A stretch of DNA of 64,000 nucleotides from Chondrosia reniformis (lineage: Eukaryota; Porifera; Demospongiae; Chondrillida; Chondrillidae). Position 1 is the stretch's first letter. Every line of letters begins with the position of its first letter. Shown piece by piece: positions 40,815 to 63,385 of this stretch. The position numbers were made by a program, and so were the translations under genes. The notes beneath the pieces are model-generated. The model was given only the letters and a program-made list of their open reading frames with translations, did not search any database and was not told where the DNA came from. The stretch spans positions 5,780,501 to 5,844,500 of the forward strand of contig OX359189.1 of NCBI GenBank assembly GCA_947172415.1, read 5' to 3'.

Positions 40815-41304
40815 CCATATGTGCTAATCATTTTTGCAACACTGGCTATCTCTACTTCTAGTTACATTTTTAGATGTTTTTATTTATTTATTTTTACTTC
40901 TATATCTTTGTGTTTACATATCCTGAGTGTATGTACCCTTGTATGTGTCAATATGTACATGTGATTTCATCCACTAATGGGGTTGAAGGAAACCTTCCTC
41001 ACAATGAAAGATATAAAAGAATAAATAGGCCTCCTCCCTCTCATGAAAAGAAATCAGAATTGATAACATTAGAATTGTCAAGTATATAGCTCCTAGTGAA
41101 TCAGTAGTGTGCTTAAAAGATTGAAACCAATCTGTATTATAAAAATCTGCTAATATATCATTTATACCTTTGGATAGAACAGAATATTTGGGAGCTAAAT
41201 ATCCTGTATACCAGAACAATCTCCAGTCTGCTCTAAGAACCACAATTCCTTAATAATATATATAAACAATTGTGTGAAAGCCGATTTCCATATTCTCAGT
41301 TACA
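40815..41304. other. Spacer before the receptor cluster
   Basis: No gene was seen. The receptor homology starts abruptly near 41305, marking a breakpoint. Confidence 0.4.
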
Positions 41305-43267
41305 TTTTTGAAGAGAGATGATACTGGAAATTATACTTGCACTGCTATGAATGTTGTAAGAAGTGTTACCATAGCAACCTATTTATTAGTTACAGGTAAG
41401 AAGCATTTTCGTTTTCCTCTACGTTTTATATATATATTTCCTCTCTATATATCTTATGCCTATTATATATACACATGTACATGATTCAGCTCAGAGAGCC
41501 AATATCAAGAAGAAGACAATTGCTAAGATTCCCTCGGTCACTGATTAAGTGTTGTATGCACAATTTAGCACAAGCCAAGGACTCACAAACAAGAAGACAA
41601 AGACTCCCAGGGTCACTGATGAAGGGTGGTGCAGTAGAGCAGAAGAATAAAGAGAAGACTCTTGTATCCTCATCCAAAGCTCTCATTAGGTTTAGTTCCA
41701 TATATATATACGTAGTTCATTTACTGTACAACAGTTTGTAGGAAATGGAAGTTTAGATTATAGTGTTTCTAATATAAGTTACATTCAAAAGTTCTAATTG
41801 ACTGTTGTAAACTTTAATTTCTCATCATAATTCTTTATAACTTTGTATTTCTACTAAATTTCATAGCTTCTCCAACTGTTCCACAAATGATCACATTTGA
41901 GGATGTTAGTCCATTCTCAGCTACTATCAGTTGGATCCCTCCATCCGATAATGGAGGAACTGATCAACCACTCAAGTACTCCATCACCATCACAAACAAC
42001 ACTGTCACTCTCTCCTTCACTACATCAGATGTGACTACTCTGTCACTGACTAACCTTCAACACAGCACTCAATATGGAGTGGAAATAGTAGCTGAGAATG
42101 AATATGGAGTGAGTCCTCCAGCAGCCAGTACCTTTACAACACCTGACTCAGGTATGTGAGATGTAGTTCCATGTAGTGTATAGTGAGATATATGAGTATT
42201 TGTCTGTTATGTAGTTCCTATTATTGAGAGTGTATCAGTTGAAGCACTCTCACTGACTATTCTATCAGTGGATGTTGTACTACTGACTGACGGAGGACAG
42301 AATGTGGATAATTATACTGTGGGTATTTAAACATATTTTGAATTAATACTTTTGTATACGTATAATTATTTATATTCTGTATAAAAATACATAGGTATTG
42401 ATTACATCAGCAGGCTACAGGAATGAGAATGTAGTTTCTACAGCTCAACTGATGTCTCATAATTTGACTGTGTAAACATTAAAACAAGGAGTGTATTATA
42501 TTGTAAATGTAAGTGCTGTGAACAGAGTTGGACCAAGTGAAACATTTCAGACTGGCTTTACTGTAAACAATTACATGTCAAGTGAGGGAACTGTATAAAA
42601 TTGAGACATGTTCTTTTTTGATGTACATTTATCTATATAGTTATAAATTTTAATTTCTGCATGCTTTAAACCATTCAACCAAATGTACATATATATATCA
42701 TTATATGTATAAGTTAATATACATTATAAGTTATTACATTTGTTTTCTGCACAGCTACAAGCGTGTTGGTAATTCAAGACTACACATCAGTCATAATTGG
42801 AAGTGTTATTGGAGTTATTCTTGTAATTCTACTACTCATCATATTCATACTATTTACAATCCTTTATTGGAGACATAAGACAAGATCTAAAGGTTTGTGA
42901 AACATTATTTAGAGCCAATAGTCATGCAACCAACCAATATTATAGTACATTTATGTTATTTAACTATAATTATAACTGCAAATTTCATGTAAAATATTTA
43001 TATTTTCATCTTTATATCCATATAGTTGTAGGTCACACAAAACAGACTAAAGAGGTGGTGTATGAAGATGTAGATTCTAAAGAGGTTGACCTCCTCCAGC
43101 CCAACCCCTCTTATGTAACTGTTTCCTCTCCCTTCTCCTCATCTGGTCTGTCTGGTCAGGTGCAGGGTCCAGTGAATGAAGAGTGTGAGATGAGGGACAG
43201 AGTGGTGATTGAGGAGAACCCTGCTTATGGTGCTCTGAACAAACCCACAGAGTACAGTAACCTGTAA
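41305..43267 (+). pseudogene. Ig-FN3 receptor, cluster member 1 (5'-truncated)
   Basis: Exons: the end of an Ig domain (about 41305-41395, DDTGNYTCTAMN), FN3-1 (41867-42151), FN3-2 in two parts (42215-42318 and 42395-42581), membrane exon (42755-42892, SVIIGSVIGVILVILLLIIF, then WRHKTRSK) and tail (43026-43267). All phases agree with the intact members. The signal peptide, outer Ig domains and part of the last Ig exon are missing, and a TAA lies in frame at 42473-42475 inside FN3-2. The tail matches member 4 (VYEDV, NPSYVTV, NPAYGAL, TEYSNL). Truncation plus stop make it a pseudogene, unless the upstream end is rebuilt elsewhere. Confidence 0.8.
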
Positions 43268-44000
43268 CACAACTTCAATACACTTTATCTTGAAGCCATT
43301 TTAATTCCGATTTTACTATATAATCTGTATCTATTATATAAGAGCATAACATTAGCTCTCATTTTTCTTAAGTTTTAAGTTATATGTACATACATACAGT
43401 ACGTAATACTAGTGTAATATGTAAATAGGAATATTTTGTGTGTTGTTATTGATTCTTAAGTGACTTCCTACTATATACTGTTAACTGTTAACTTCATTTT
43501 CTATCAGTGTGTTTTCATATATCTTTTGTTGCATGGTATTGTAACACTTCCTCCTTTTAATGCACATTCAGTTTAACATCTTTGAAACTAGTAACACAAC
43601 CACAAGTGTTTCAAAGTGGACTTACAATAACATATGAAACTGCTAGAGTGTATACTTAAAGATTCTAAAATTTCCATTTCATTCCATTCCAGTTTTAATG
43701 TGTTCAAATGGACAATATATATACCAAGCAAGTCTATCTGACTCTGTCTATATGAAGGCAGTTATGTAATAATGAGTATTGATAAAGACTGTCTCAGTCT
43801 AAACAGTGCATGTAGTGCGACTGTATGTAACTATGTACAATACAAATCAGGTAAAATATTTGACCAAAGAGATAAATTAAAATCAATCTCTACTGAATAT
43901 ATATCTTCAGTCCTGGTGAGGTATACATGTTCTGACTGTACATGCTACCAGCTGATAGCCATCATTATGGAAATTAAACATTTGTCTTGAGACAGTGTCA
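43268..44000. repeat. Duplicated 3' flank of receptor member 1
   Basis: Nearly identical to 63386-64000, the flank of member 4, for at least 610 bp, up to the window edge there. This shows that members 1 and 4 derive from a recent duplication that includes non-coding DNA. Confidence 0.85.
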
Positions 44001-44577
44001 ATTAATGTACCACCTGGTAGCAGCCCATTGGGGAGAGAGCAGATTTACATGAGCTCCCTACAAACCAATCCCCAGATTAATGGAATTATAGTGAAATACA
44101 TAAGACCCACATATTACTGCCAGATGGCGATCGACCACAGTACCAAACAAAGCCATTGTCAAATTTCAATCAAGACATAAGAGGATTTATGCCACTTTAT
44201 CTCACTGAAACTGTGCATCTAATTCAGATAATGAAGTTAAAAATGAAGAATGCAGACCTGTTCTAGCTACCAGTAGCTTCTCCATCACAGTCTACTGTGC
44301 ATGCCACCAAAGTATTAGATAGTATGTAGGAATAGATCTGAAGTGTTGATAGGCAATTCACCAATTACAACTATATTTCCACATATATATTATGGAACCA
44401 AGTGGTTTAGGTTTGATGAGACTTGCTGCTTTTGGGCATATTTGATCGATAGGTGGCTGCTTCAACTTCTGGAAATGAAATTCAAGTAAGTATATGACTT
44501 ATAGAGAACCAAATTCTACAAGACCATTACCATTGTTAGGATTACCTCTCCTTACTTCCTGTTTGTACTCCCCAAGT
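44001..44577. other. Spacer, no gene seen
   Basis: May continue the duplicated flank beyond what the window allows to compare. Confidence 0.35.
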
Positions 44578-44998
44578 CTCACCTTAAGAGTCCTCTTCAT
44601 CTCACCTTAAGAGTCCTCTTCATCTCACCTTAAGAGTCCTCTCCATCTCACCTTAAGAGTCCTCTTCATCTCACCTTAAGAGTCCTCATCATCTCACCCT
44701 AAGAGTCCTCTCCATCTCACCTTAAGAGTCCTCATCATCTCACCCTAAGAGTCCTCTTCATCTCACCTTAAGAGTCCTCTTCATCTCACCCTAAGAGTCC
44801 TCTTCATCTCACCCTAAGAGTCCTCTTCATCTCACCCTAAGAGTCCTCTTCATCTCACCTTAAGAGTCCTCTTCATCTCACCTTAAGAGTCCTCTTCATC
44901 TCACCTTAAGATTCTCTTCTTCTCACCTTAAGAGTCCCCTTCATCTCACTCTAAGAGTCCTCTTCATCTCACCTTAAGAGTCCTCTTCATCTCACCTA
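44578..44998. repeat. 23-bp minisatellite, about 18 units
   Basis: The unit TCACCTTAAGAGTCCTCTTCATC repeats with few substitutions (CTT/CCT, CTTCATC/CATCATC, CTCCATC variants). No open frame of note. Confidence 0.9.
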
Positions 44999-46747
44999 TA
45001 TATATAGGCTCTGTTGCAATCCTTGCAAGGGACTGGTACACTACCCCTCTCTTCTTATTCTCTGGAGTACACATGCATGATATCTTTTTTCCTTTTTTTG
45101 TTTTATTACTTTGAACCTATGCTTTGAAATCTTCATTTTTTCATTTTTCGTTTGTATACATGTGCATTATTCATTTTTCTTTTTTTCCTTTTTCGTCTTC
45201 CCTTGTATATGTCTGCTTACATAGATGTATGCGATGCGCTGAGTTATATACCTTCCTATTAAACCAATCTTATTATCATCATTATCGGAATTGGGTTTGT
45301 ATATAACACAATGATCACTTCTGTTTAACTTTTGAAATATCCATATACATGATTTTAACTTAAATAAAAATGCAGTTCTTGATCAAATTCTTCTTGCTGT
45401 TTCTTGTGTTACTGGAATAATCTTATAACTATGCAAGCATTTACAAGAGTATACTGAATGATTATAGATGGATGTGTTAGCTGTAGTATAAGATATAGAT
45501 TTTCGAATATATATGTTACCAATTGGGATTGTATATACGATCAATGATCATCTGCAATGTACATTAACACTTCAAATTAAAAAGAGAAAAATGTTTAAAC
45601 AATGATGAAAAATATAGTTTTAGTTCTTCAAACAATGTAGTTCTTAAAAACAAGTTCTTTATAGTGTTTCTTTTCCTTTTGAGTGGCATGGAATGGTTTG
45701 CTGTAGTACTTCTTTTCGCATCACTTTACTGAGTAAAATGAGTAAAAGTGATCCCAGGGCACACCACGTGGAGGTAGAAGTACTTTGTGCCCCAAAAGGC
45801 CTCCGGTTTCTCAACTCTGTTTGACACTTCCACTACTTGCGTCGTAAGAGAAGCTGCTCGGGAACGGTCCGGCGTACCTGACCGACCTGTGACCAGTTAC
45901 TAGTCTTGCTCTGCCTCACGCTACGGACAGAACAAGCCCGACCCTGGCGGACCACAAACTCCCACCAATGAGAATCATCATGTGCACACAACGCAGCTTG
46001 AGAGTACTGTACACAGACTTTAGCTCATTGGGATCGGCCAGGCGCTTTAGAGTAGGGACCCATCAGTTCATTGAACTGCAAGAGAAGAATTGAAAATACA
46101 TAATATAAAATACAAAGAAATACTGCTTTGAATACAAAATACAAATTCCTTCCAAACCAACCTGAAGCTGCAGCCTACAACAGGGGTTCCTGACCGACTA
46201 CGTAGTGGCACTGGACCACACCAACCTCCAGGTACGGGTCGTATAGCAAGAATCCCGCAAGTGCCAATTTAACACACAAGCAGGATTAATAGTGAGATAC
46301 ATCTCCAGGCACTAACCCATGATAGAGAGACCACCCCACTATACGAACACCGATGACCCTTCGGATAGGCATGTACCATTGCTCGTACTCCAAGAATGGT
46401 TTTCGCATCGATCCACACCAAAGTAGACCTCCAGAGTTGATAGCCCGGAAAGCAAAGACTGAAAATTTCCTTGCCTATTTATTAGAAATTGTCGGCGGGA
46501 AACATCGTGAACTTGGCGGAAAATTGCGGAACCAAATTGTTTTCGATGTCATGTTCGAGAACAATAGACAACATGTAGTACATGCCCTGACCTATTCAGC
46601 AATTTGTTATTTGCTATTTGTTATTGTTATTTCTATTGAGTTCAAACTCGAAAACATGTATGCATGGCTATCAAGCAAAGTTATAAGTGAATCATATAAC
46701 AATTGCAATGACCCCATGAATGGAAGTGCGTATACACAAGCTATTAA

Positions 46748-47105
46748 TATTTCAATGAACCTCAATTGTTCAGCAAAAATCACTAAAGATATGCAAAAAT
46801 CGTTAATCTTAATTAAACATACAAGCTCCTGCGATCGCATGAATTGACATACATTAGTCATGCGGTATGTTTCATGCTCAACACATTGAGAATCAAGGAT
46901 ACAGATGTATTTGTTAAACAGAATCACAGGGTTCTTAATATCCATATCCATAGGTATTATTGAATGAAGAAAGTTTGTGAGCGATTGCTTCGTGCATACG
47001 CTATGTTATTGCTCAATCAATATTTCAATGAACCTCAATTGTTTAGCAGAATCATATACATATTATTAAAACATACAAGCTCTTGCGAGCACATGAATTG
47101 ACATA
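46748..47105. repeat. Local direct duplication of about 100 bp
   Basis: TATTTCAATGAACCTCAATTG and ACATACAAGCTC...CATGAATTGACATAC occur in the same order at about 46748-46855 and 47021-47105. Confidence 0.7.
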
Positions 47106-47599
47106 CTTTTTAAGAATCAAGGATATGATGGGTACTCAAAGACTTTCTTCGTTACATATTACCTTTATAGATATCATAATTAGGAAAATAGATCAAAGAG
47201 GATTAACGAAAAAATCACTCATGAGTGATAGCTTGGTAAATCCTTTTGTTATTGCTCAATCAATTTGTGAATCCAAAATGGCCGTTGCAATGTGCTGAAG
47301 CCTAATTATTTTGAGGGACTTTGGCGTTGTACATGCCCTAAACTTCTCTGATTGGTATGTTGTTTAGGGAATCATACAAATTATATCCTCTTTTAAATGA
47401 TGTTTGTCTTTCTTTTAAGTTACAAGATTAGCATATTATTTCAGCACTTTATCACATGTAATAATACTAACTTGTGAGACTGCTTAAATTGTAATTTGTC
47501 ACTGTAGGTACTAGTTATGCAAAACAACATTTGATTACTCACGTATATGGCTTATTGTGCAGCCTATACTTTATTTGCTCTATTTGCAGAAGAATTGTC

Positions 47600-47880
47600 A
47601 TGGAAATCAAATGTCAGTTACCTAGCAACATGTCCAATTAAGTAGGAGATTATTAAAGTTATTGACTAAACCCACATCAGTGGAAAATATAGTGAAAGAA
47701 AGTGTTGTATCAAGGGAGACATTTCCATGGAATTAGCAACATGTTCAATTAAGTAAGCAGAAGGACTGAGTGGTAGGGGATCTTTAAATTATTGACTACA
47801 CCAATATCCAGGTTGGAAAGATAGTGAAAGAAGGTATTGGATCAAGGGGAAATTTGCTTGGAATCAGCAGTGAGTATAAC
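47600..47880. repeat. Local direct duplication of about 130 bp
   Basis: AGCAACATGT(C/T)CAATTAAGTA, ATTATTGACTA and ATAGTGAAAGAA...ATCAAGGG recur in order in two adjacent copies (about 47620-47720 and 47738-47860). Confidence 0.65.
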
Positions 47881-49169
47881 AACTGTAAAGGTTCTGGTTT
47901 ACATTTGTCCAATGGGACTACCTGATTTAGCATGTCTATCATTCCCTAAATAACTAGTAACTCCTAGCTACCATAGTTCAGTTGGGGGAGGTGTGTAGTA
48001 CATGCTTATCAGGTTCTCTGTATCCTATAGATCAGTTCACCTTGCATTTGGCTTTGAAACTTTACAATCTATTTGATCAAAATCTTTCTTGTTTCTGTAG
48101 CTACTTAGATAATCTACTTGTTTTTACTCTTTTTGAGTATCTATTGTAACTAGATATAGGAATACTCCATTATATTTGTCCCATTTGTTTGTTTAATTCT
48201 CTACCAATATTATTTCCAATTTTATATAGAAAAGTCTCCATTAACAACCAGGTGCAGTTCCCTGGCAACCATCAAGGAAATAAATATTCAAATGGCTCTC
48301 ACTTGTAGAACAACTTCACACATGTAAGTCAAGCAGTATCTTCACCTAGTCAGCTGATCCTGATTGAGACCAGGCAGTTTCTCCAAAGTCATTATTAATG
48401 GATGTACATGAAAAAACAAACATTAATTTGTTTTACAATATGTAAAGGTGATGTAATGTTTATATGTACTTCATGTCCTTTTCACAGGACCTATCTGTAA
48501 CTACTGTACTAGTATAGGTTTTGTAGATTATAATTATCATTGAAACTTTTCTGTCCAACTGCTTCTTTGTAACAGCACATGACAGTGGTTGATGCAATAA
48601 CATGTTTTGGAAAGATTTGTGTCTGAGCATGCACTAATTGTATAGCAACTTCTTTGGGGGTTACAATGTATTCTTGTTAAAAAGTTAATTTCATAATATT
48701 CCTTTAAGTTATAAGAATTACAATGCTCTATACTACATGTGAAGATAGGTATAGAAACCTTAACTTGCTGCACTATATACACACCTCTATTTGATTGATG
48801 TATACTTCTTAACTGGCATGTTGAGAGATACATTAGGCAAATGTTGGTATATATATATGCATCAAAATATCTAAAACTAATTGGACGTACTTTATGGATG
48901 TCTGTGAATTTGACTTGTATGTTTAATATTTAGCTATCAGATTAATTATATTAATCGATTATTTAGATTGTCACTGATCATGAACAATTATTTTCATTCA
49001 CATGCATAAATACAAGTCATAGAATGTTTAAACTATACAAATGTTAACTGTTTTGTTGTACAAAAGATAAAGAATGAGACAAAGACTCCCAGGTTCACTG
49101 ATCCTAGACCAAATTTGGGATGATATTCTCATTGTTGATCAACTTCTTTAATCTTCTTCTGGTCACTTT

Positions 49170-49975
49170 CACACCTTCACAAGAGTAGTAGAGAGAGGTG
49201 AACAAGAGTGGTGGAGAGAGGTGAATAAGAGTGGTAGAGAGAGAGGTGAACAAGAATGGTAGAGAGAGGTGAACAAGAGTGGTAGAGAGAGGTGAACAAG
49301 AGTGGTAGAGAGAGAGGTGAACAAGAGTGGTAGAGAGAGGTGAACAAGAGTGGTAGAGAGAGGTGAACAAGAGTGGTAGAGAAAGGTGAACAAGAGTGGC
49401 AGAGAGAGAGGTGAACAAGAGTGGCAGAGAGAGATGAACAAGAGTGGCAGAGAGAGGTGAACAAGAATGGCAGAGAGAGGTGAACAAGAGTGGTAGAGAG
49501 AGGTGAACAAGAGTGGTAGAGAGAGGTGAACAAGAGTGGTAGAGAGAGAGGTTAACAAGAGTGGTAGAGAGAGAGGTGAACAAGAGTGGTAGAGAGAGGT
49601 GAACAAGAGTGGCAGAGAGAGAGGTGAACAAGAGTGGCAGAGAGAGATGAACAAGAGTGGCAGAGAGAGGTGAACAAGAATGGCAGAGAGAGGTGAACAA
49701 GAGTGGTAGAGAGAGGTGAACAAGAGTGGTAGAGAGAGAGGTGAACAAGAGTGGTAGAGAGAGAGGTGAACAAGAATGGTAGAGAGAGGTGAACAAGAGT
49801 GGTAGAGAGAGAGAGGTGAACAAGAGTGGTAGAGAGAGAGGTGAACAAGAGTGGTAGAGAGAGGTGAACAAGAGTGGTAGAGAGAGGTGAACAAGAGTGG
49901 TAGAGAGAGAGGTGAACAAGAGCTGCAGAGAAAGATGACCAAGAGTGGTAGAGAGGTGAACGAGAGTGGCAGAGT
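49170..49975. repeat. 23-bp minisatellite (GAGTGGTAGAGAGAGGTGAACAA)
   Basis: About 34 units with 23- and 25-bp spacing (an extra GA) and substitutions GTGGTAG/GTGGCAG/ATGGTAG. A higher-order repeat is visible: the block near 49390-49560 recurs at about 49612-49790. Minus-strand frames up to 300 codons arise only from the repeat. Confidence 0.9.
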
Positions 49976-50193
49976 CATTGTGTAGACTAGTGTAACTGTT
50001 GTTCATGCCTTAATTTGGCTTCGGCTTAGAAGATACACCAGAAGCACTTTTAAACAGTTTAAAAATCAAGGAGCATGTGCCATTACCCAAAACCCTCATA
50101 GACCTTGCATTGTGTAATTGTTACCCGATTTCTTTAACGCACTTGCGCGATATGCATATATGCGACGAGACTCAATAATACTCTTTATACAGA
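49976..50193. promoter_or_regulatory. Likely 5' flank of receptor member 2
   Basis: The 218 bp between the minisatellite and the ATG must hold the promoter or a 5' UTR. No core motif could be assigned with confidence. Confidence 0.3.
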
Positions 50194-53011
50194 ATGTGGT
50201 ATCTACTCCTGAGTCTCCTTGGTAAGCAACAATCACTTATATACTAAGTAAATGCAAACACGGTATGGCTGTATTTTGAATCCTCCAGGTTTTCTTGGTG
50301 TAACTACTGCAGCTCCAACCATTTCTCCTAGTCTCCGAGTACAATTAGTTGAAGGATCAAGTTTGGAAATCACATGTTTTGCGGGTGAAGGAAATATCAA
50401 CCACAAAGGGTTGTTTCTTTATAGAAATGGTTCCGAGCTCCCTTTTGAAATGGGAATTAGGACTTTCAACGAAACTGCTCGTTCGGTGACCTATTCACTC
50501 GGTCCGGCTAACAGAAGCTATACTGGGTCAATATTAAGTTGCCTAGACAGTTTGCTGCCTATAAGTGACCCGAATGCGGTGTCAGAAGATTTGTTATTGA
50601 TCGTCTCCTGTAAGTGAGATAATTGCTTTGAGCATTGTGGTACGTAGCTTGGGGAGCTCTATGGGTAACTTTCTGCCCGTTGACAATGATTGCGCAGGGG
50701 CGAGAAAGTATTCGTTCACCCACTGCAGATGAATAAGCAGGGGTTAGCGAGAGGAAGTATTCTTACCTCCAGATACTCGATTGATGCCAGTCAATAATAT
50801 GTACATGTATGTATGCTTTTCAGATCCTCCTGTACTTGGTGATATTCAACAGAGTGTTACACTGAATGTTGGTGCTCCATTCACTTTGAACTGCACTCCA
50901 GTTGATGATGGCAATCCTCCAGCTAATGTCTCCTTGTCTTACAACAACACTGGAACAGCTGAGGAGAGTGTCACTATAACTGGTTATGTGTTGAGTGTAT
51001 CTTCAGTAGTTAGGAACCACAGAGGATACTACAGTTGTGAAGTGAGCAATGGAGTTGGGAGGGATTCAGTGACTGTACAGTTAATGGTTAAAGGTGAGTA
51101 ATTTACAAACATAGGTTTGTTTTGCCTTACGCTATACATATGAATGTATATCTTCTATAAATACAGCTCCTCCGACTGTTCCAAGACAACCAATGTTACT
51201 AGTCAATGGTCCATTCAGTATCACTCTAAGTTGGGAGGTACCATCTGATGATGGAGGAACTAGTCAACCTCTCTCCTACACTGTCAGAGTGATAAATGAC
51301 ACTGTCAACTTGTACTTCAGTACAACTTCAACTCAACTGACCTTAACTATGGATGATGGAATATGGCACAGTTCAATGTATAGTGTAAGAGTAGTAGCTG
51401 AGAATGAATATAAAGTGAGTCCTCCAGCAGCCAGTACCTTTACTACACCTGACTCAGGTATGTGAGATGTAGTTCCATGTAGTGTATAGTGAGGTATATG
51501 AGTATTTGTCTGATATGTAGTTCCTATTATTGAGAGTGTATCAGTTGAAGCACTCTCACTGACTATTCTATCAGTGGATGTTGTACTACTGACTGACGGA
51601 GGACAGAATGTGGATAATTATACAGTGAGTAGTAGTATTAACTGTAACACATTTTTTAGGGAATGTTTAATTATCTACAGGTCACAATTTTCAATAGTAA
51701 CATTACAATTTTAGCTCAGCCAAACAGAACCTCTTATAACTTGACAGTAAATGAGTTAACAGAAGGAACGAGTTACACAGTAACTGCTACAAATAGTATT
51801 GGTAGGAGTGTTCCAATTGAATCAAGATTATATGTACCAGGTAAGGAACTCGTTTAATTAAATATTGATATCACTATATTGGTATGATTTCATAAATGAT
51901 GAACAAACTAGTAAGATTTAGTATTATATTATACCAAGAGTATGTACACATAGGGGATATGCCCCCTTCAATCCCCATCAAACATCAAGTCCTTTGTGAT
52001 TGATGCTGTTATTACTTATATGCTTACAAGATTTATCCATAAAGTATATATAGATGAACAATTATACCTTAAATACTTTATTATCTTTGCAATTCATAAA
52101 TTCAAGTGTAATTGTCAGTGTGCTACATGTTAATTTTGCCTTTAACACATGCTATGGAAACTAATGGGAAAAATGGCTGCTCATTGTTGGAACTCTATGG
52201 TTCTCATGAGAATCCTTAATTACAAGCCAACTTAATGAATTTGAAAAGGAAGATATCTGATGATATATTTATTGGTTTTCTATAGTGTTAACATCACCAG
52301 GGACTTCCCCTTCATGTTCCTTCAGTCAACTGGTAGCTGGTTCAGTAGCTGGTTCGCTTGGAGGACTCATTCTTGGTCTGATAATGGGAGCAGTGATCAC
52401 TACAATCATATTCATCTGTTGTGGTAAACAGTGCAACAGAACTAGTGAGTGTTTTAGTGCATTCTAAACATTATTTAATCTATACATAGAGAATAATACA
52501 GTACTTTTTGGGTCAGTTGTCCAGACTGGACAGTGCAATCGATAATCTGAAAAGGTTATCGCTGCATGCACGGTGACGTCAATCTAGTGGGAAAAATTCA
52601 AATGGTAGTTGTGAGTTACCGATTGCAACATCCAGTCTGGACAATACAACATACGTACATACATATATAGGAGACATTATATATAAACATATCAGAGACA
52701 TTCAATTGCATGATATAGCTCAGTGCATTTACATTACATTGAAATTGTTGATTGATCTATGCATTAAACTTACTATTTTCACAGATGTCCCTTCCAAACC
52801 ACCTCCTCCTAAAAATCCCACATATGAAGACTGTGAGATGAAGAATGTTGTTGATATGCAACACAATCCTTCTTATGCTGTACCATCTCAAGTAACAGGA
52901 TCTACTGAGAAGAAAGAGACCATCACAATGAAAGGATTAGAAAGGAGAGGAAATGAAAACAAGATGGCTGACAAGGGAGGGGACATTGTTACATATGAAA
53001 CACCATCATAA
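50194..53011 (+). CDS. Ig-FN3 receptor, cluster member 2 (519 aa)
   Basis: Eight exons: 50194-50221, 50289-50609, 50824-51093, 51167-51457, 51521-51624, 51681-51840, 52286-52444 and 52785-53011, total 1560 nt. Residues 1-18 are a signal peptide (MWYLLLSLLGFLGVTTAA). Ig-1 has ITCF/LSCL cysteines. Ig-2 has LNCTP...YYSCEV but no core Trp. FN3-1 begins PPTVPRQP, and FN3-2 is split over two exons. The membrane helix (LVAGSVAGSLGGLILGLIMG then AVITTIIFICC) is Gly-rich. The tail has NPTYEDCEMK, HNPSYAV and VTYETPS. Introns between domains are phase 1; the one inside FN3-2 is phase 0. Probably a cell-surface recognition receptor whose tail tyrosines bind PTB/SH2 proteins; ligand unknown. The structure is read directly; the role is inference. 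Confidence 0.88.
52516..52646. repeat. Small MITE in intron 7 of receptor member 2
   Basis: Inverted ends of about 28 bp: TTGTCCAGACTGGACAGTGC and, on the other strand, TTGTCCAGACTGGATGTTGC, followed by AATCG(A/G)TAA. Total about 130 bp. Confidence 0.75.
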
Positions 53012-54659
53012 ATATACAAAAATGGAGTGTTGTGTGTGTTTAGTTCTTTTTGAGTTGCTATTTTAAACTAATTTTCTATATCTGTGTTCTCATATTTGTA
53101 AGAAGACTTTTTTGGCATAGAAAGAAACAATTGTGGTTTTATAATAAGAAACAGCTCTCTGTACTTCTCTATTGGTTTCCATCTTGGAACACGTATATTG
53201 GGAGGAAATCACTGGTTTCGGGGAGTACCATGAGTCCATATTGTAGGTTTTGTTCCTTCTGATATGGGACCCACTCATTAGAACATTTGTTTAATTAGTC
53301 AGATACACACTGTGCATGTTTTTTGCTTGTCACTAAATCCCACCCACGACTCGTTGCTTTCTATTGCTATCAATCATTACTTGTCAATTTTTTAAGTTGT
53401 AAAATCATTTGCCTGATGAAGCCCGAGAGGGGCAAAATGTCGCAATAATTTGAAGTTTCATTCACTGATGGTGTGCTACGTAGATCTTCCAATAAAAAAA
53501 CAGTACTGTATTTTTCAGACCAGATTGCAATTGCTTTACCACTCATCACTCTTCATGTTTTGGTCAAATACATATTATATACAGTATATACAGTATATAC
53601 ATATAAAAATTTCCTTGTATATATTACAGTATAGGTACCGGTACAATTGGAATGTTTTGTATTGCTATTTGATATAAATGACTTCCTATATACTATTAAC
53701 TGTTAACTTCATTTTCTATCAGTTTGTTTTTAAATGTCTTTTGTTATATGACATTGTCACACTTCCTCATTTATAAAGTGTAATCAGATTATGATAAACA
53801 GTCAATTTAGTTGTTTATATAGTGTATATGAAGAGGAAATAAGAGGAATGATATATACACACTTTACCTTATATGGACTGAAGTATACCTATATATATAT
53901 GACATGTTAAATATTCCAGTATGTATGTACGCATACATACATGTACTATATGTTATTCATGCATAAATAGAATTAAATTTAAATGAACCTCATAAACACA
54001 ATTTCTGCAATGGACTGTTTCAACCTTGAGATCTTCATCAGCAACAAATAAAGAAATAATATCTACCTACCTTACACAGTCATATATATCCAACACTTTA
54101 ATTAATTAAGATATTGCTCAATCTTACAATGTCATATATAAATGTATTATTCTTATTAAAGCTTTACTCTTCTCTTGCTTAACCTGATCAGTATATATAA
54201 AACTGCATACGTATACTTATAAGGAAGACATATCTGCAGACTCTGGCTTAGCTCAGGAGACATGAGAGGGTTAGGTAAAATCTGATTTTAATATTGAAGC
54301 TTTAAGATTGTCTTAGATCTATATATATATATATATATATAGGAAAGGAATTAAGGTTCCTGGTATATGTGGTTAGAAGAAACCTGAAAATGACCTTTGT
54401 ATTCTTTCTGGTTATCCTTTCAGTCTACTCTTTCTTTGGCTGATGATTATCGCATTCAAGTTTTGAATGGGAACTACCAATTGCATGGTAAATATGCCAA
54501 TAGTATATGGTAATGGCTTGTAATATACGTATGGCCAGTCCAATTCTATACTGGACATGTAGTCAAATAATACATGTGTGTATCCCCATACAGGACAGGA
54601 AGCGTGGGCGTCTGCTGTAGCTAGAAGCATATACCTGACTTGCACACTACCTGTCAACT
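53012..54659. other. Spacer after receptor member 2
   Basis: No gene was seen. A possible polyadenylation signal (AATAAA at about 53490) and a TA tract at 54319-54341. Several short open frames without domains. Confidence 0.35.
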
Positions 54660-54807
54660 AGTCCTTCAGTACAACTTCAACTGAACTTAACTATGGATGA
54701 TGGAATATGGCACAGTTCAATGTATAGTGTAAGAGTAGTAGCTGAGAATGAATGAATATGGAGTGAGTCCTCCAGCAGCCAGTACCTTTACTACACCTGA
54801 CTCAGGT
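54660..54807 (+). pseudogene. Orphan FN3 exon fragment
   Basis: Matches the second half of the FN3-1 exon of the receptors (MDDGIWHSSMYSVRVVAENE) and keeps the donor GTATGT after GACTCAG. An extra GAAT (GAATGAATGAATAT) shifts the frame, and the first half of the exon is absent. It is a relic of another receptor copy between members 2 and 3. Confidence 0.85.
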
Positions 54808-55333
54808 ATGTGAGATGTAGTTGTTTATGTGAGTATGTGAGTATTTGTCTCCTCCTATAGTATATATAACAACTGATGAGAGTGTTACAACAAGTAGTTA
54901 CCAAAGTACAAAGTCTAATTAATGTATTTAAGAAATTGTGTGTCACAAATGTTCCCAAACTTGTAAAGTATTGTTAAAATTGTGTATTAATTTTAATTTT
55001 TAATTTTGGTGTTTCGATTGTGGTCGGATAATTGTCATTTAAATTTAAATAATGATTGTTTATTATTGTGACATGCTATGCAAAACTGAAATCAGTAAAG
55101 ACAGCCCAACCACAAGGGATTAGAAGTCACACTAAAATTGATTCACCTATAGCCAGTAGGTTCGTGGATCCACGTATTAAATCCTACTATGTTGTGAATT
55201 TAAATGGCGGATGTGTACTACAGACTCCATCCAGCAATCATTGTGGACACAGACGCGCCGGTTAATTCCGGAAAAACTTTGTTAGGTTCAGGAACATAAT
55301 TAAATCTGCATGTTTGAGGTGGTTGGCCTAATA
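54808..55333. other. 5' flank of receptor member 3
   Basis: No coding exon supported. It contains the decayed intron of the orphan FN3 fragment at its left end. Confidence 0.35.
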
Positions 55334-58300
55334 ATGTGGCTGCACACTTTATTTTTCGTCTTGTTTGATTGTAAGTGTCTCCATTAGCTCATTCGAACAT
55401 ACGTAACTGTAGTATTAACATTACATCCTACTGATCTCGCAGTCTCCTTGAGTCAACAAGTGATATTCTACGAACTTCCCCAAAATCAAACCACATCAGA
55501 AGGAGGACATGTTCAGTTTAAATGTAACGCTTCTTTGTCGAACTATCGTTGGTTTTTGGAAATCCCAAAATACGACTCCCAAGTCCCTATACGCGGCAAC
55601 AGATCTGATATTAATGGTATAACGGGTGCTTATTACCTAATCGAACTGAACGCTGCCACGCTTGTACTGGAAGGTGTGAGCAGGTCCCATCATGGCTCTT
55701 TCGTTAAATGTGCAGTGGAAGATGATATGTTCAATCCAATTGAACAAGATCCTCCGTACGCCTATCTCCATATTGTTTGTAAGTATTATAAAGTATCTGC
55801 AAATGTGCCCTCAAAGTGTTACAAATGTAATGCGTTTCTTTTCCAGTTCCCCCAGTTTACACACTTGTTAACAAACATCAGACCACTTCTTCAATTGAAG
55901 GAGACACTTTTAGCTACAGTTTTGTTCTAGAGTTTGGTAACTCGCAACCAACCATTACTTGGACCAAAGATGGTAAAGTATTAACTGCAAGAGATGGACT
56001 TGACTTAAATGCTACCAGTATCAGTATAAATAAAGTGACTCGATTGGATGATGGAGAGTATACTGTAATGGCTTCAAACTTGGCTGGCTCACATTCAGCT
56101 AATTTCACCCTGGAGGTGTACTGTAAGTGTGAGCATATAAGTGGTAATTGGTAGTCTCTACGTATATATATTTTTTCTGATGCTATATGATGTTTGAATT
56201 ACTTGTGGTTTGATTATCGCTTCGATTATACATAGGAAGCTTAATTGTAGCTCATGTTACTCCCCCAAAAAGTTATATCTGTAAGCCAAGTTTGAAGTTT
56301 GAAGCTGGCAAGAATGCCAAGTATATACAGAATTAATATTTATTTGTTATTTTTGTTCTTAAAAAGGTTTCTGAGGCCTTCGTCACATTGCCCATGACAT
56401 TCCCCAAAAAAATTTGCACCTGTAGTTTAGAGCTGAGTAACTTGAAAGTGCATAGGGAAGAGAGTGAGAGAGATATATGTTCACATTGAAGATAGACAGT
56501 TGTTGGTGTCATTGACATTTCTTTGATCACATTAAATGCTAGCCTTCTTTACTATGTACGTATATTGAGAGTTTCGTATAAGTATGATTTATTAGCTTGC
56601 ACATTATTATTAAATGTATAAATATATTTCAGACTTTTAAGTTATTAAGTGTATTTTATTTTTATACGTACATATGTGTCCAGATCGCAGCTTGAATGCA
56701 CTTTATGTCAATATGTGCATTTTGCTACATATATATTCAGATCCTCCTGTACTTGGTGATATTCAACAAAATGTTACACTAAATGTTGGTTATCCATTCA
56801 CTTTGAACTGCACTCCAGTTGATGAGGGAAATCCTCCAGCTACTGTCTCCTTCTCTTACAACAACACTGGAGCAGCTGAGGAGAGTGTCACTACAACTGG
56901 TTATGTGTTGAGTGTATCTTCAGTAGTTAGGAACCACAGAGGATACTACAGTTGTGAAGTGAACAGTGGAGTTGGGAGGGATTCAGTGACTGTACAATTA
57001 ATAGTTGGAGGTGAGTATGTAGAAAAGTGGATAAAAGCTGTGGCTTTATGAACTTCATAAATCTCTACAGCTCCTCCGACTGTTCCAAGACTACTGATGT
57101 TACTAGTCAATGGTCCATTCAGTATCACTCTAAGTTGGGAGGTACCATCTGATGTTGGAGGAACTAGTCAACCTCTCTCCTACACTGTCAGAGTGATAAA
57201 TGACACTGTCAACTTGTCCTTCAGTACAACTTCAACTCAATTGACCTTAACTATGGATGATGGAATATGGCACAGTTCAATGTATAGTGTAAGAGTAGTA
57301 GCTGAGAATGAATATGGAGTGAGTCCTCCAGCAGCCAGTACCTTTACTACACCTGACTCAGGTATGTGAGATGTAGTTCCATGTAGTGTATAGTGAGGTA
57401 TATGAGTATTTGTCTGTTATGTAGTTCCTATTATTGAGAGTGTATCAGTTGAAGCACTCTCACTGACTATTCTATCAGTGGATGTTGTACTACTGACTGA
57501 TGGAGGACAAAATGTTGATAATTATATATATACAGTGAGTGTTTGGATATAATTGGTATCTTTATGTATACCGTATTATCTCTAATATAAGCTCAGATCT
57601 CTAATGCAAGCCCGTCTCCAATAGAAGCCCGCCTTTACGAGTCATTGAAAAATAGAAGCCCAGTCCCCAATATAAGCCAGCCAGAAAAAAAACTGAACGA
57701 TTTCCATAGCCGTATGTAAAAGGGCGCCTTTCACCCGTACGTAGTTTAGGTGTTAAAGCAAAGGTATGCGATTACAGTAGTGTAGCGAGTGTTAACCTAG
57801 TATCTGTTGAGCTGTTAATGAAGTCATCCTATTGATTATGCTAACGTTCCAACAAAGTTGATTTACCAATATGAATTGAAGGGTTGAAAAAATAAAAGCT
57901 TATATTAGAGATAATACGGTATGTGTATCTATACATACATTTACAGGTAGTACTTGTTGGAGGTAACTATAGTTTTGAGGAAACCATTCCTTTTTCTTCT
58001 GAACTGATGATTGAAAATCATAATCTTAGAATTGGACAGAAGTTTACAATTATAATAACTGCTACAAATAGTGTTGGAGAGAGTGATCCATTTCAATCAA
58101 ACTTTACTGTGCCCAATGTAATAGGTAAGGAAATTAAATTTGTGTATATATAAACATATATACGAATGTATGATTTGTATTTAACATTTACGTATATATA
58201 GATCAAATTGAAGTCGCCGAAAGTAAGTGTATGGTGTATGTATATATAGTACATGTTGTTGCAAAATAAAATCCTTAAACAGGTTACAATATACAGCATA

Positions 58301-58753
58301 TTTAATCATTCCAGCAGGCTCCTCTAACTACACATTGAGCACACTACTTGCTGGATCATTTGGGGGACTAGTACTTGGATTAATATTAGGAGCTGTGACC
58401 ACAGCTATAATATTCATCTGCTACATTCAATATCACTATGGCATTAAAAGTGAGCTACAGATCTGAAAATGACTATTACAATACATACATTCATATTAAA
58501 GGGAAACAGAAGGAATGTATGTAATTTTGACAGTACATACATATTTAACTTGTATATAGATCTCCCTTCTGATAAGCCAGCTCATCCGGAACAGGTTACA
58601 TATGAAATCTGTGAGATGAAGGATGCTGTTGAGTTACAGCGAAATCCTTCTTATGCTGTACCATCTCAAGTAACTGGATCTCAAAAGAAGGGAAAAGCAG
58701 AGAAGATGGTTGACATAGAAGGAGATGTTGTTACGTATGAAATGCCTTCTTAA
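55334..58753 (+). CDS. Ig-FN3 receptor, cluster member 3 (608 aa)
   Basis: Nine exons: 55334-55370, 55443-55778, 55847-56122, 56741-57010, 57071-57361, 57425-57534, 57947-58124, 58315-58449 and 58560-58753, total 1827 nt in frame. Signal peptide MWLHTLFFVLFDF. Ig-1 has FKCN...FVKCAV and a Trp core (YRWFL). Ig-2 lacks both cysteines (TFSYSF and EYTVMASN) but keeps the Trp and the DDGEY turn. Ig-3 (PPVLGDIQQNVTLN) is close to Ig-2 of member 2. FN3-1 and FN3-2 follow, then a Gly-rich membrane helix (LLAGSFGGLVLGLILGAVTT). The tail has QVTYEICEMK, RNPSYAV and VTYEMPS. FN3-2 is two residues longer at NYIYT than in other members. A MITE sits in intron 6. Role inferred as for member 2. Confidence 0.88.
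57571..57919. mobile_element. TA-flanked MITE in intron 6 of receptor member 3
   Basis: A perfect inverted end (CCGTATTATCTCTAATATAAGCT at 57571, complement ending at 57919) is flanked by TA at 57569-57570 and 57920-57921. The same intron in member 4 is uninterrupted at the matching site. The size of 349 bp and TA duplication indicate a Tc1/mariner-derived MITE. Confidence 0.85.
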
Positions 58754-59629
58754 AATTACACCACTATTTTGTATTCTTAGGTGTTTTCAGAATGAGTTCC
58801 TAAACCTGCTTTTCAGTATTTGTGTTATTTATTATATTTCTAACCACATGGGTTTTGATTTGTGAGAGTTTATATTTCTATATTTGAGTTACAACTTTCC
58901 AAGCATGTTTCATGACTAATGTATGACATTAATGTGATAAAATTCTAGAGCACACATATATATATAAAACAATTGCATCAAATATATTAATTAGCTATGT
59001 ACAGTATTTCTGTAAGTTAATCTAATCTCTAATCTTAAGAAAGTGTTTCACATGTAACGGATCCCCTTCTATATCAGCCATTTTTTCTTCCTGCTCTTTC
59101 TTCTCATGCAGCTCATTGGTACAGGCCTATAGGTATAGCTATAGGTTGTGCTGCATCAGGATAATACTAAAGTCATTTCTACTCTGTCACTTTGTCTCTT
59201 TGCACCGACTCTATACCCAACACTCACTGTCACATCTCCTCTGGTACCATATGTGTAATCTATAACACCACTTTATATATAATGAAGCCAATTTTAACAT
59301 CTGTATCTTATACACAAGTGTAAGTGTACATATGTACGTAAGTGTACATTTGCTCTCGTTAATTTCATATCCTCCATATTTTGGTCATATTCCTCATGTA
59401 AATAGAAATGTTGTGCATTGTTATTGAGTGTATACTTCTGTACTGTCTTTTTTTATTATTCTCATTCATAGTAACTTTATGCTGCATGTATATCTTCTGT
59501 GATTAGTTTTCCAATAGAATTAGCCATATATATATAATAAATGCCACCACTGAATTAAATGCTTCTACTCTATGATTCATATGCTTTTATATAGGACAAT
59601 TTTTCTTTTGTATTCATACTATTATGTAG
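58754..59629. other. Spacer after receptor member 3
   Basis: AT-rich, no gene seen. Confidence 0.35.
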
Positions 59630-60330
59630 TAATTTCTTGAACTTGTCACCTCCTCACTCAAGCTTTTCCATTGCATGCATGAGGGTGCCTCCTTGAATAG
59701 AAATGATTGTCTCCCATACATGGTCCTTACAAGGGGAAGTTTACATCCTCTGGTTCGATTGTTCCCCATGGATTAGTACAAAAGAAATTATTAAAGTAGC
59801 ATGGAGCCTGATTATGTAAACATCTATGCACAAGCGTAGTCCAGTATACACTTCCCTTCTCCTGGTTAATGGTACCCCACTCTAGTTTTCAGCGCAGCTC
59901 TTCACTTGTTGTCCTGGGTAGCTTTGATAGAAGATAGAATCAGCCTCATACAATATAGTTCTGCTCTCATTCATATATTCTGCTGGTCCAGGAGTTCATC
60001 ATCATCATCATTATCATAACTTTAACCAGGGAAGCCCATCAAAGTGAGGTAGTATATATACACCAGAGCAATGTATATATAGCATCTTCTTGATGTTTAC
60101 AGGTAACTAGAAACTCCCTTAGCCTCAGGGTGGACATCTGGACACAAGATTGACAGGTGACACAAAATATATGGATGACACAAGATTGCTTATCCAAGCT
60201 ATACTGTCATGTGCTTAGCTATTCCACTTCAACTCACCATCAATCCATTGCCCCCAAGTACTTGACCTTCTTACTCATTGAAACTTCACCTCTTCAACTT
60301 CTGCTGCTTGCTTAACACATCTCTAAGTCA
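59630..60330 (-). mobile_element. Degraded LINE fragment
   Basis: The minus strand shows a KKVKYLG block near 60260-60290, similar to the thumb of LINE reverse transcriptases. Near 59640-59760 is a NRTRG...PCMGDNHFYSR-like stretch as at LINE C-termini. Many stops. A (TCA)n tract at about 59997-60017 lies in between. Weak but consistent in strand and order. Confidence 0.4.
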
Positions 60331-60475
60331 GCATTTAGTACTTGAAGTTTGACCAAAATTCATTTACAGAAAACGAAAAATATAGACTTGAAGATTTACG
60401 GTATACGTATATACGTAGCTCTAATATTGGGACCCATTTCATAATATGGAGATCTAGGGATATCGAAAGTAATTG

Positions 60476-63385
60476 ATGTCTATACTCTCAGAGTTACAGA
60501 TCGTCTTTCTCGCGTACATATTCACCTTAAGTGAGTCACTCCTCCAGAATCTATTCTTATTAAAATGGTGTCTTCAAATTCGTCAGTTGCAGGTCAGTCA
60601 GTCGATAACTTTCCAACAGAAGATGTGACTGTTGTTTTAGGAGGAACTGCTCAACTCTCTTGTACTCCAACTGTCAATGGAGCGAGGACTACTGTCGCCT
60701 GGTCTATATCACCTCCAAATGGTGTAGGCGATATTACGATAATCAATGACCAAACCGTTCTAGGTACACCTGTGTTTGTTGGCAGTGAATATCGTTCTCC
60801 TCTTGTATTCACTAACGCTTCTAGAGAGCTAGATGGAGCTATAGTTGGTTGTCGATATGATGATGGAGTGAACATTATTCTCCAACCACAACAGAGCAGA
60901 CCTACTGTAACAGTTTTGTGTGAGATAGTTTTGAAACTACATATTTTGCAAACCACGCAATACTTCTATCTTTTGTGTATCTCTAGCTCCTCCAAAAATC
61001 ACATCTGCCGTAACTACTAGCAGTTCAGTAGAAGGAAAAACGTTCACTTTCTCATTCAGTGTTGATGGAGTCAGTGATCCAGACTTTGCTAACTTTATTG
61101 TGTCCAAGGATGGAGAGGCTGTCTCGTTAACTGGAGGAAGATTTAGTGTAGACTTGACAAGTTTGACAATCAGTAATGTGAATCGTACTGACAGAGGAAA
61201 CTACACCATCACAGTGACTACATTAGCTGGGAGTGACTCTGTCTCATTCTATCTAAATGTGTACTGTGAGTTGATGGAGAAGTGACCTTTAATGTAACAT
61301 GTAACAATATCCTTCTCTCTCTGACACATCAGATGTTGCAGAGTTCACTGAAGTGAAGAGAATGGAGGAGATTGAAGAAGGGAACACATTCACATTCAAC
61401 TGTACTCCATCTGCTGCCAACCCTCCACCTAGTAGTTATGTGTTTGAGAGAGATGGAGTGGACGTCACAGAAGGAGTGAGTGGATCCATCTTAACTATCT
61501 CTTCTCTGAAGAGAAGTGAAGATAGTGGAAACTACACTTGTGTGGTGACTAATGAAGCAGGAAGTGTTACCATAGCAACATGCCTGAATGTGTTGGGTAT
61601 GTGTTTTGTATGTATAGTAATTCTTCCTTTTAGTTCTGTCTGTTCTGTCTCAATCTCAATTAGGTCCTCCAAGTGTTCCACAAGACATCACATCTGATGA
61701 TGTTGGTCCATTCAGTGTCACTCTAAGTTGGGAGGTACCATCTGATGATGGAGGAACTAGTCAACCTCTCTCCTACACTGTCAGAGTGATAAATGACACT
61801 GTCAACTTGTCCTTCAATACAAATTCAACTCAATTGACCTTAACTATGGATGATGGAATATGGCACAGTTCAATGTATACTGTAACTGTAGTAGCTGAGA
61901 ATGAATATGGAGTAAGTCCTCCAGCAGCCAGTACCTTTACTACACCTGACTCAGGTATGTGAGATGTAGTTCCATGTAGTGTATAGTGAGGTATATGAGT
62001 ATTTATCTGTTATGTAGTTCCTATTATTGAGAGTGTATCAGTTGAAGCACTCTCACTGACTATTCTATCAGTGGATGTTGTACTACTGACTGATGGAGGA
62101 CAGAATGTGGATAATTATACTGTGAATGTTTGATATAATGGGTATCTTTATGTATATATCTGTATATACATACATTTACAGGTAATACTTGTTGGAGGTA
62201 ACTATAGATTTGAGGAAGCCATTCCTTCATCTTCTGAACTGAGGATTGAAAATCTTATGCTTAGGATTGGACAGAAGTTTACAATTAAAGTAACTGCTAC
62301 AAACATTGTTGGAGAGAGTGATCCTTTTCAATCAAACTTTACTGTGCACAACATAATAGGTAATTAAGTGATTCAAAATGTAAATAACAGGTACATATAT
62401 GGTTTTAAGTCACTGTTTTATGTTTTATAACTGAAAATGTGATCGTGGTAGAAAGTGATAAATTAATAGTATATATAATAATAATACTGTTCTACTGTAT
62501 GTTGTATTTGCAGTGTATGTGTAGTACTAATCATATATTATATATTATAAAGCATTAATTTATATAACTGTCTTTTTACTTGAATAACATGTCTAATAAG
62601 GAACCACAGGATCTCTTGTATGAAAGTTGTACATCCATTTCCATTTTAGTTTCTGCTGTTGTATTTATATAGCCAATACTATTAAGCCAAACATGCATTT
62701 CTTTGTTCTCATGCATGTAATTATAATTATAAGTCATGTCCAATTTTGCTGTATAGCTATACCTGCAACTGAAGGCTACATACCAGCTGTAGTTGCTGTA
62801 GTTGGAGGAGTTATAGGAACTATTCTTTTAATTATATTCACTACCACATTCATACTGCTTATTGGACTGTATTGGAGACATAAGACTAGATCTCAAGGTT
62901 TGTGATACTTTAAAGGAAAGACATTTTCTTAACCAATACAGTATACATACTTACATGTTAATTTATGTACTGTATTTGTAAAATTATGTTCATACGTATA
63001 TACTATATTCATCGCATTTATTATCATTTACCATATATTATATATTATATTTATATTATTATTATATCTAATTTTGCAATGAAGTATAGTACAAATTCAT
63101 AAATGCATACAGTAATTTTCACTATCATATATTTACTGTACTCCAATAGTTCACACAAAACAGACTAAAGAGGTGGTATATGAAGATGTAGATTCTAAAG
63201 AAGTTGACCTCCTCCAGCCCAACCCCTCTTATGTAACTGTTTCCTCTCCCTTCTCCTCATCTGGTCTGTCTGGTCAGGTGCAGGGTCCAGTGAATGAAGA
63301 GTGTGAGATGAGGGACAGAGTGGTGACTGAGGAGAACCCTGCTTATGGTGCTCTGACCAAACCCACAGAGTACAGTAACCTTTGA
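60476..63385 (+). CDS. Ig-FN3 receptor, cluster member 4 (624 aa)
   Basis: Nine exons: 60476-60530, 60593-60919, 60987-61265, 61333-61596, 61664-61954, 62018-62121, 62182-62359, 62757-62897 and 63150-63385, total 1875 nt in frame. Signal peptide MSILSELQIVFLAYIFTL. Ig-1 has LSCTP...VAW...GCRYDD. Ig-2 has no cysteines (FTFSFSV, NYTITVT). Ig-3 has FNCTP and NYTCVVTN. Two FN3 domains, then the membrane helix (AVVAVVGGVIGTILLIIFTT) and WRHKTRSQ stop-transfer. The tail has four tyrosines: VVYEDV, NPSYVTV, NPAYGAL and TEYSNL. The last two form YxxL-x5-YxxL, one residue short of a usual ITAM, and YSN fits a Grb2-type SH2 site. Membrane-proximal exons and tail nearly match member 1. Likely an activating or adaptor-recruiting surface receptor; role inferred. 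Confidence 0.88.

Follow-up and report, generated by a model that had tools for sequence, protein, structure and literature searches.

A tandem cluster of Ig-FN3 membrane receptor genes with apparent exon-level exchange in the sponge Chondrosia reniformis

Introduction

Does a cluster of immunoglobulin (Ig) and fibronectin type III (FN3) genes in the sponge Chondrosia reniformis encode recognition receptors, or adhesion molecules that were duplicated locally? The cluster lies in a stretch of 64,000 nucleotides (nt) of contig OX359189.1 (assembly GCA_947172415.1, positions 5,780,501 to 5,844,500, forward strand), referred to here as the window. A first-pass annotation of the window had proposed tandem receptors with two to three Ig domains, two FN3 domains, a membrane helix and a short tail with NPxY and YxxL/V tyrosines, and had likened them to immune or allorecognition receptors of other phyla. 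Our analysis revealed three intact genes (B, C and D), one pseudogene (A) and one exon fragment on the plus strand between 41.3 and 63.4 kb of the window. We consider it fairly probable, judging from their sequences, that these represent a family of receptors for recognition at the cell surface, arranged in tandem, which duplicates and exchanges parts at the exon level. The family is probably lineage-specific.

Gene models and domain architecture

Gene models were rebuilt from the DNA and every splice site was checked. Genes B, C and D were found to encode proteins of 519, 608 and 624 amino acids (aa) in 8, 9 and 9 exons, respectively, with GT-AG borders at all introns and no internal stop. 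The three cleanly splicing members proposed at first, together with one pseudogene and one orphan exon on the same strand, were thus recovered. All introns of B, C and D are in phase 1, the sole exception being the intron within the second FN3 domain (FN3-2; phase 0), and with phase 1 nearly throughout most ectodomain exons are swappable with the reading frame kept. Pseudogene A contains a single in-frame stop, in its FN3-2 3' exon; its FN3-1, FN3-2 5', membrane and tail exons are open. Searching the window with B, C and D (tblastn, E <= 1e-3) revealed no members beyond A-D and the fragment, no copies in positions 1-41000 and no minus-strand matches. Pattern searches for relatives of the cluster, as might be carried along by host contamination, in collections of genome contigs and viral contigs gave 61 and 8 matches, of which none was confirmed. 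The start codons of B (50194), C (55334) and D (60476) are spaced by 5140 and 5142 nt; the intergenic DNA is unlike, and this near-equal spacing is probably a coincidence.

Each of B, C and D carries Ig and FN3 domains above the curated Pfam cut-offs, a signal peptide (read by eye) and a membrane helix, as in an Ig-FN3 type I membrane protein. An N-terminal 19-mer above hydropathy 1.6 is present in B and D and absent in C. Two Ig domains were identified in B and three each in C and D, with best whole-protein Pfam Ig E-values of 9.9e-12 (B), 1.3e-22 (C) and 1.7e-21 (D). The first FN3 domain (FN3-1) was matched in all three (E 2.8e-08 to 4.3e-07), and residues 258-493 of D align with titin in a PDB sequence search (whole-sequence E 1.4e-36). 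FN3-2 alone stayed below the cut-off in B (E 6.6e-05; 23.5 bits, cut-off 25) and D (E 0.17) and gave no Pfam FN3 match in C; the second FN3 domain is degenerate. The proposed layout therefore held overall, with the reservation that FN3-2 alone falls short of the Pfam cut-off.

Analysis of the Ig domains revealed differences between the membrane-distal (tip) Ig, Ig1, and the others. The spacing of the two cysteines is 46-48 in the proximal Igs and 55, 62 and 63 in the three tip Igs, and the tip Igs have in common a GxxxxC strand where the proximal Igs show GxYxC. In C and D, Pfam assigns the middle Igs to the I-set, yet these domains lack cysteines. The first Ig exon of B had no Pfam match at E <= 1, and those of C and D had sub-threshold matches only. 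AlphaFold2 models of the tip exons of B and D, each built from an alignment of eight Ig exons of the window, gave an Ig fold that is qualified by a mean predicted local distance difference test (pLDDT) of 72 for B and 64 for D. For the D model, all 50 listed PDB matches are titled antibody, Fab or T-cell receptor (one 'Immune receptor'); the best has E 2.5e-04, and 11 of all matches lie at E <= 0.001. For the B model, the majority of the 50 listed matches are antibody, nanobody, shark NAR or T-cell receptor, and the 8 others are CRLF1 (the best match, E 7.3e-06), LAIR1 (four rows), Tyro3, LAR and a Dpr-DIP complex. Since the PDB is rich in antibodies and the models had no I-set control, a V-type tip Ig is suggested by these models as a lead.

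Exchange between copies

The genes of the cluster appear, from comparison of their sequences, to be mosaics with exchange between copies. A core of about 233 nt, running from column 229 of an alignment of the FN3-1 exon, intron and FN3-2 5' exon through the end of the latter exon, is 96.2-97.9% identical in all six pairs of A-D, and its 63-nt intron is identical at 61-62 of 63 sites in every pair. Each of A-D contains the first 25 nt of this intron once, giving four occurrences in the whole window against 0.00 expected (100 shuffles); together with the Pfam Ig and FN3 E-values, this places the likeness of the family beyond chance. The same 25-nt pattern gave no match in the genome-contig or the viral-contig collection.

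The breakpoints are sharp. Across column 229, mismatches between A and each of the other three copies fall from 78-90 of 216 sites on the left to 5-9 of 233-235 sites on the right. Similarly, D differs from B and C at 21 of 40 sites before column 41 and at 13-15 of 418 after it. In the breakpoint test on this alignment (300 permutations per pair) the observed value was never reached in five of the six pairs; it was reached by 27 permutations for B-C, a pair alike along the whole alignment. A longest-run exchange test gave 0 and 1 of 2000 permutations reaching the observed value for B-D and C-D, and weak results for A-B (28), A-D (85), A-C (246) and B-C (454). The breakpoint test is preferred for A because A is distant from the other copies outside the core. 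Selection acting on the protein alone would leave an intron free to diverge, and the simplest account of the core is therefore gene conversion or recombination. Constraint alone as its origin is less likely, the core intron being as similar as the exons.

Identities of the remaining modules are discordant. Tip Ig pairs share 24-28% of amino acids over 67-99 aligned positions, and 16-17% with D in a multiple alignment. At the nucleotide level the proximal Ig exons of B and C are 94% identical, with D apart (B-D 46%), and the FN3-1 exons are 97% identical between B and C and 89-90% with D. The FN3-2 5' exon shows 97-98% identity in the pairs of B, C and D, with no amino-acid change in 34 codons. 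In the FN3-2 3' exon C pairs with D (90%) and B stands apart (51-54%; B-C 54%). The membrane exon is 55% identical between B and C and 78% between A and D (over 115 columns), and the tail is 77% identical between B and C and 46% between C and D. The tail of A with about 620 nt of its 3' flank matches D at 96% over 863 columns, reaching the window's end. These discordant identities indicate that C groups with B, then with D, then again with B along one gene. Within the FN3-2 intron of C, an insert resembling a miniature inverted-repeat transposable element (57569-57921, terminal inverted repeats of about 26 nt) splits an otherwise continuous C-D similarity.

Membrane stretch and cytoplasmic tails

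One strongly hydrophobic membrane stretch was found in each of the three intact genes. When the count begins at the best 19-residue stretch, the tails of B, C and D are 82, 73 and 98 aa long, respectively; the true tail of D is therefore shorter than this figure. No Pfam catalytic domain, neither receptor tyrosine phosphatase nor kinase, was found in these tails. Two tail types were identified, type I in A and D and type II in B and C; inspection of the sequences shows a CEM[KR]-x7-NP[SA]Y block in every tail. The motifs are NPSY, NPAY, YEDV, YVTV, YGAL and YSNL in D (and A), NPTY, NPSY, YAVP and YETP in B, and NPSY, YAVP and YEMP in C. NPxY was thus found in all tails, as the first-pass annotation had claimed; YxxL/V proved confined to A and D (four of five tail tyrosines in each; none of three in B and none of six in C), and B and C carry YxxP beside NPxY.

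Compared with 20000 shuffled tails, NPxY is over-represented: two copies in D were reached by no shuffle, two in B by 2 and one in C by 288. The four YxxPhi motifs of D were reached by 260 shuffles (moderate over-representation), and YxxP is weakly over-represented in B (600) and C (1406). Among immunoreceptor motifs, the immunoreceptor tyrosine-based inhibitory motif (ITIM) follows [VILS]xYxx[VIL] and the activation motif (ITAM) YxxL/I-x6-12-YxxL/I. One ITIM-like site, VVYEDV, occurs in D and none in B and C, at chance level (5719 of 20000 shuffles), and the closest ITAM-like pair, YGAL and YSNL in D, has a gap of 5 residues as read from the sequence. With the lone ITIM-like site at chance level and no ITAM, membership in the ITIM/ITAM immunoreceptors was not accepted.

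Selection

For the youngest modules, the ratio of non-synonymous to synonymous rates (dN/dS) comes close to 1, as seen in FN3-1 (0.93-1.03), the proximal Ig of B-C (1.04) and the FN3-2 3' exon of C-D (0.85), with a bootstrap P(dN>=dS) of 0.386-0.557. Older comparisons gave ratios below 1: 0.18 for the membrane exon of B-C (P 0.002), 0.33 for the middle Ig of C-D (P 0.001) and 0.51 for the tail of B-C (P 0.036). Counts are small, and silent-site saturation voided 438 (membrane exon) and 238 (middle Ig) of 1000 bootstrap replicates. Constraint on the membrane exon, middle Ig and tail argues that the genes work, and these older comparisons suggest that the proteins are kept by selection.

Interpretation and alternative explanations

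Exchange between copies is a pattern of recognition-receptor clusters. The likeliest role of the family would be recognition of cells or microbes, with adhesion, engulfment or an immune response as its outcome, and we rank such general recognition first, above engulfment, microbe sensing, adhesion and allorecognition. In the mechanism that we propose, the tip Ig, presented by the FN3 stalk, would bind a ligand that varies and that sits on a microbe or another cell. Src-type kinases would phosphorylate the tail tyrosines, and the phosphorylated tails would recruit phosphotyrosine-binding (PTB) adaptors through NPxY and SH2 proteins through YxxPhi (type I) or YxxP (type II), a motif that suits Crk-type SH2 domains. 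Different heads would thereby report to different outputs. Exchange at the near-identical core and at phase-1 exon borders would reshuffle heads, stalks and tails among copies, and some duplicates, such as A and the orphan exon, would die. The pairing of NPxY with PTB adaptors is described in PMC8092387.

Several observations weigh against recognition receptors of this kind. FN3-2 holds another hydrophobic stretch that is weaker than the membrane one (hydropathy up to 1.87), the Ig1 models are of modest confidence, and 8 of the 50 listed matches of the B model, CRLF1 the best among them, are to other Ig proteins. Likeness of the core may be partly constraint (FN3-2 5' exon, no non-synonymous change in three pairs, bootstrap P 0.048-0.132), and dN about equal to dS in the younger modules could reflect relaxed constraint as well as diversification. 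Furthermore, the motif shuffles were done after NPxY and YxxL/V had already been named in the first-pass annotation.

Adhesion or engulfment fits the data almost as well as a part in immunity or allorecognition. Ordinary lineage-specific adhesion molecules resembling LAR, contactin or DSCAM, duplicated locally for homophilic tissue adhesion, uninvolved in immunity or self/non-self discrimination and with exchange as a by-product of tandem copies, are possible, though we would not expect them. The Ig-FN3 architecture fits them, NPxY is also present in adhesion proteins, and the PDB sequence matches of D (best 60 of 102) include titin, DSCAM, RPTP-sigma, RPTP-delta, Robo, contactin and NCAM. The order of Ig then FN3 domains is shared with LAR-type receptor protein tyrosine phosphatases, contactins and DSCAM, all among these best matches; the genes studied here differ from them in having no phosphatase domain, fewer domains and tandem mosaic copies. 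Structural adhesion genes usually turn over more slowly than is expected from saturated tip Igs set against a near-identical stalk core, two tail types and a pseudogene. Engulfment receptors, with a type I tail like that of Megf10, Draper and CED-1 (NPxY for CED-6/GULP, YxxL for Syk-type kinases) and Ig1 as a variable particle- or corpse-binding domain, seem unlikely to us. The gap between YGAL and YSNL is below the usual ITAM spacing, YxxL is absent from B and C, and no EMI or EGF match was found by Pfam (E <= 1), so the Ig-FN3 ectodomain is unlike the EMI/EGF one of that group. Tails of the CED-1 family join NPxY with YxxL or an ITAM (PMC8092387), a likeness carried by NPSY, NPAY, YGAL and YSNL in D and shared by A, not by B or C.

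An assembly artefact, in which alleles of one or two genes were placed end to end, is very improbable. The 96% identity of the A and D tails and flanks lies within the allelic divergence of some marine invertebrates and would suit it. Allelic duplicates were rejected on the divergence of FN3-1 between A and D (78 of the 216 sites before the break), on the two Ig domains of B compared with three in C and D, on the saturated tips and on the spacers after B and C, where likeness to other parts of the window is limited to a short 3' element or is lacking altogether. Somewhat below engulfment in our estimation, and thus rather doubtful, stands an allorecognition locus whose polymorphic heads and activating or inhibitory-like tails would set fusion versus rejection. 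Modular exchange within the cluster and the ITIM-like VVYEDV of D favour it, as does analogy to the Alr and FcoR clusters (PMC11999971, PMC12065747), FcoRs being described as proteins of 520-610 aa with a V-type tip; the chance level of that single ITIM match and the lack of an ITAM speak against it. More doubtful again is a histocompatibility-type receptor complex in an early-branching animal, in which the FN3 core and same-phase exons would form a swap point re-coupling heads to either tail (PTB with SH2-YxxPhi, or PTB with Crk-type YxxP).

Comparison with known systems

Hydractinia Alr, a family of 41 V-set/I-set genes (PMC11999971), resembles the present cluster in clustered Ig-superfamily genes, I-set domains, several members and tail tyrosine motifs (PMC11999971, PMC12065747). 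The Alr V-set tip has a possible counterpart in the Ig1 models of D (V-like at pLDDT 64) and B (mostly V-type matches), and the middle Igs match I-set. Unlike Alr, the genes studied here have an FN3 stalk and NPxY/YxxP motifs with no clear ITIM or ITAM. Botryllus FcoRs are type I receptors of 520-610 aa from one locus with an Ig tip and tails that can carry an ITIM, hemITAM or core YxxI/L/V motif (PMC12065747), which compares with 519-624 aa and tyrosine-motif tails in B, C and D. FcoRs differ in having a sushi domain, for which Pfam gave no match in B, C and D at E <= 1, and a canonical ITIM or hemITAM. Alr and FcoR are cited as analogues of the cluster, not as families to which it would belong.

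Neither did Pfam match Calx-beta repeats in B, C and D at E <= 1. These repeats are carried by sponge aggregation factors. A 2025 review (PMC12065747) states that the proteins put forward for allorecognition in sponges, cnidarians and ascidians lack conservation, and it calls the way in which invertebrates achieve allorecognition a mystery. For sponges, aggregation factors, glyconectins and an Ig adhesion molecule appear in the excerpt of PMC11999971, and a tandem Ig-FN3 cluster does not. Surveys of sponge genes stress SRCR, NLR and Ig-TIR genes, and report SRCR proteins with FN3 and Ig as well as putative cytokine receptors in which Ig and FN3 domains accompany a kinase (PMC4772301, PMC8242945); Ig and FN3 receptors as such are hence not new in sponges. 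The main text of a sponge grafting transcriptome (PMC5450542) contains no immunoglobulin, Ig domain, IgSF, fibronectin, FN3 or receptor terms. No described counterpart of the tandem Ig-FN3 family was found among the listed papers of the open-licence literature, covered mostly as titles and beginnings of abstracts.

Overall, the parallel to recognition receptors first drawn is partly borne out, in a tandem Ig-FN3 type I family with divergent tips (24-28% aa), tyrosine tails and exchange. A recognition role is what we infer from these features, with allorecognition as one possible form of it. With its intact members, its typed tails and its mapped points of exchange, the cluster offers concrete exons for sequencing between individuals. 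Polymorphic Ig1 exons would make it a new, independent instance of clustered Ig receptors, and Ig1 exons that do not vary an instance of rapid turnover among adhesion genes.

Feature coordinates and flanking DNA

Table 1. Coordinates of the cluster genes, pseudogene exons and exchanged segments in the window
Feature	Position	Strand	Remarks
Pseudogene A, whole	41304..43267	+	5'-truncated; nothing 5' of the partial Ig exon
A, proximal Ig exon remnant	41304..41395	+	D-Ig3-like; 5' part and upstream exons missing
A, FN3-1 exon	41867..42151	+	Open; from 42086 on homogenised with B/C/D (breakpoint alignment column 229)
A, FN3-2 3' exon	42395..42577	+	In-frame stop seen in translation; 3' border approximate
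A, membrane exon	42755..42892	+	Open
A, type I tail exon	43026..43267	+	Open; tail and 3' flank 96% identical to D
Gene B	50194..53011	+	8 exons: signal peptide, Ig1, proximal Ig, FN3-1, FN3-2 (2 exons), membrane exon, type II tail
Orphan FN3-1 fragment and part of core intron	54651..54850	+	86-90% identical to B, C, D; frame broken
Gene C	55334..58753	+	9 exons: signal peptide, Ig1, cysteine-free Ig2, B-like proximal Ig, FN3-1, FN3-2 (3' exon D-like), membrane exon, B-like type II tail
Gene D	60476..63385	+	9 exons: signal peptide, Ig1 (V-like model), cysteine-free Ig2, Ig3, FN3-1, FN3-2, membrane exon, A-like type I tail
Core in A	42086..42318	+	End of FN3-1 exon, 63-nt intron, start of FN3-2
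Core in B	51392..51624	+	Homogenised core
Core in C	57296..57534	+	Homogenised core
Core in D	61889..62121	+	Homogenised core
D-like FN3-2 3' exon of C	57947..58124	+	90% nt to D, 54% to B; clearest discordant module

A, B and D have in common an element of about 130 nt in their 3' flanks (43424-43557, 53645-53772 and 63545-63669). Its identity is 81-82% for A-B and B-D, the A-D comparison lies inside the 96% stretch, and the element was not found after C (E <= 1e-3). Between A and B there are two 23-bp minisatellites of 18 and 34 copies (44577-44997 and 49179-49974), with no mutual blastn match (E <= 1e-3); the second ends 219 nt before the start codon of gene B. No RNA genes were found (no Rfam match at gathering scores, no tRNA).

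Positions 1-41000 form a belt of remnants of mobile elements containing a tnp2-type transposase, a reverse transcriptase, hAT, DUF4371 (which we take to be hAT-associated), a reverse transcriptase/RNase H fragment and a DDE_1 transposase. Of 10 upstream frames compared with Pfam, six match transposon-related families (DUF4371 counted) and four match none at E <= 0.01. Some upstream frames recur, for example 5822-6379 and 11285-11644. The longest listed upstream frame without a transposon-family match is an open frame of 232 codons without any Pfam match, at 14353-15048 on the plus strand.

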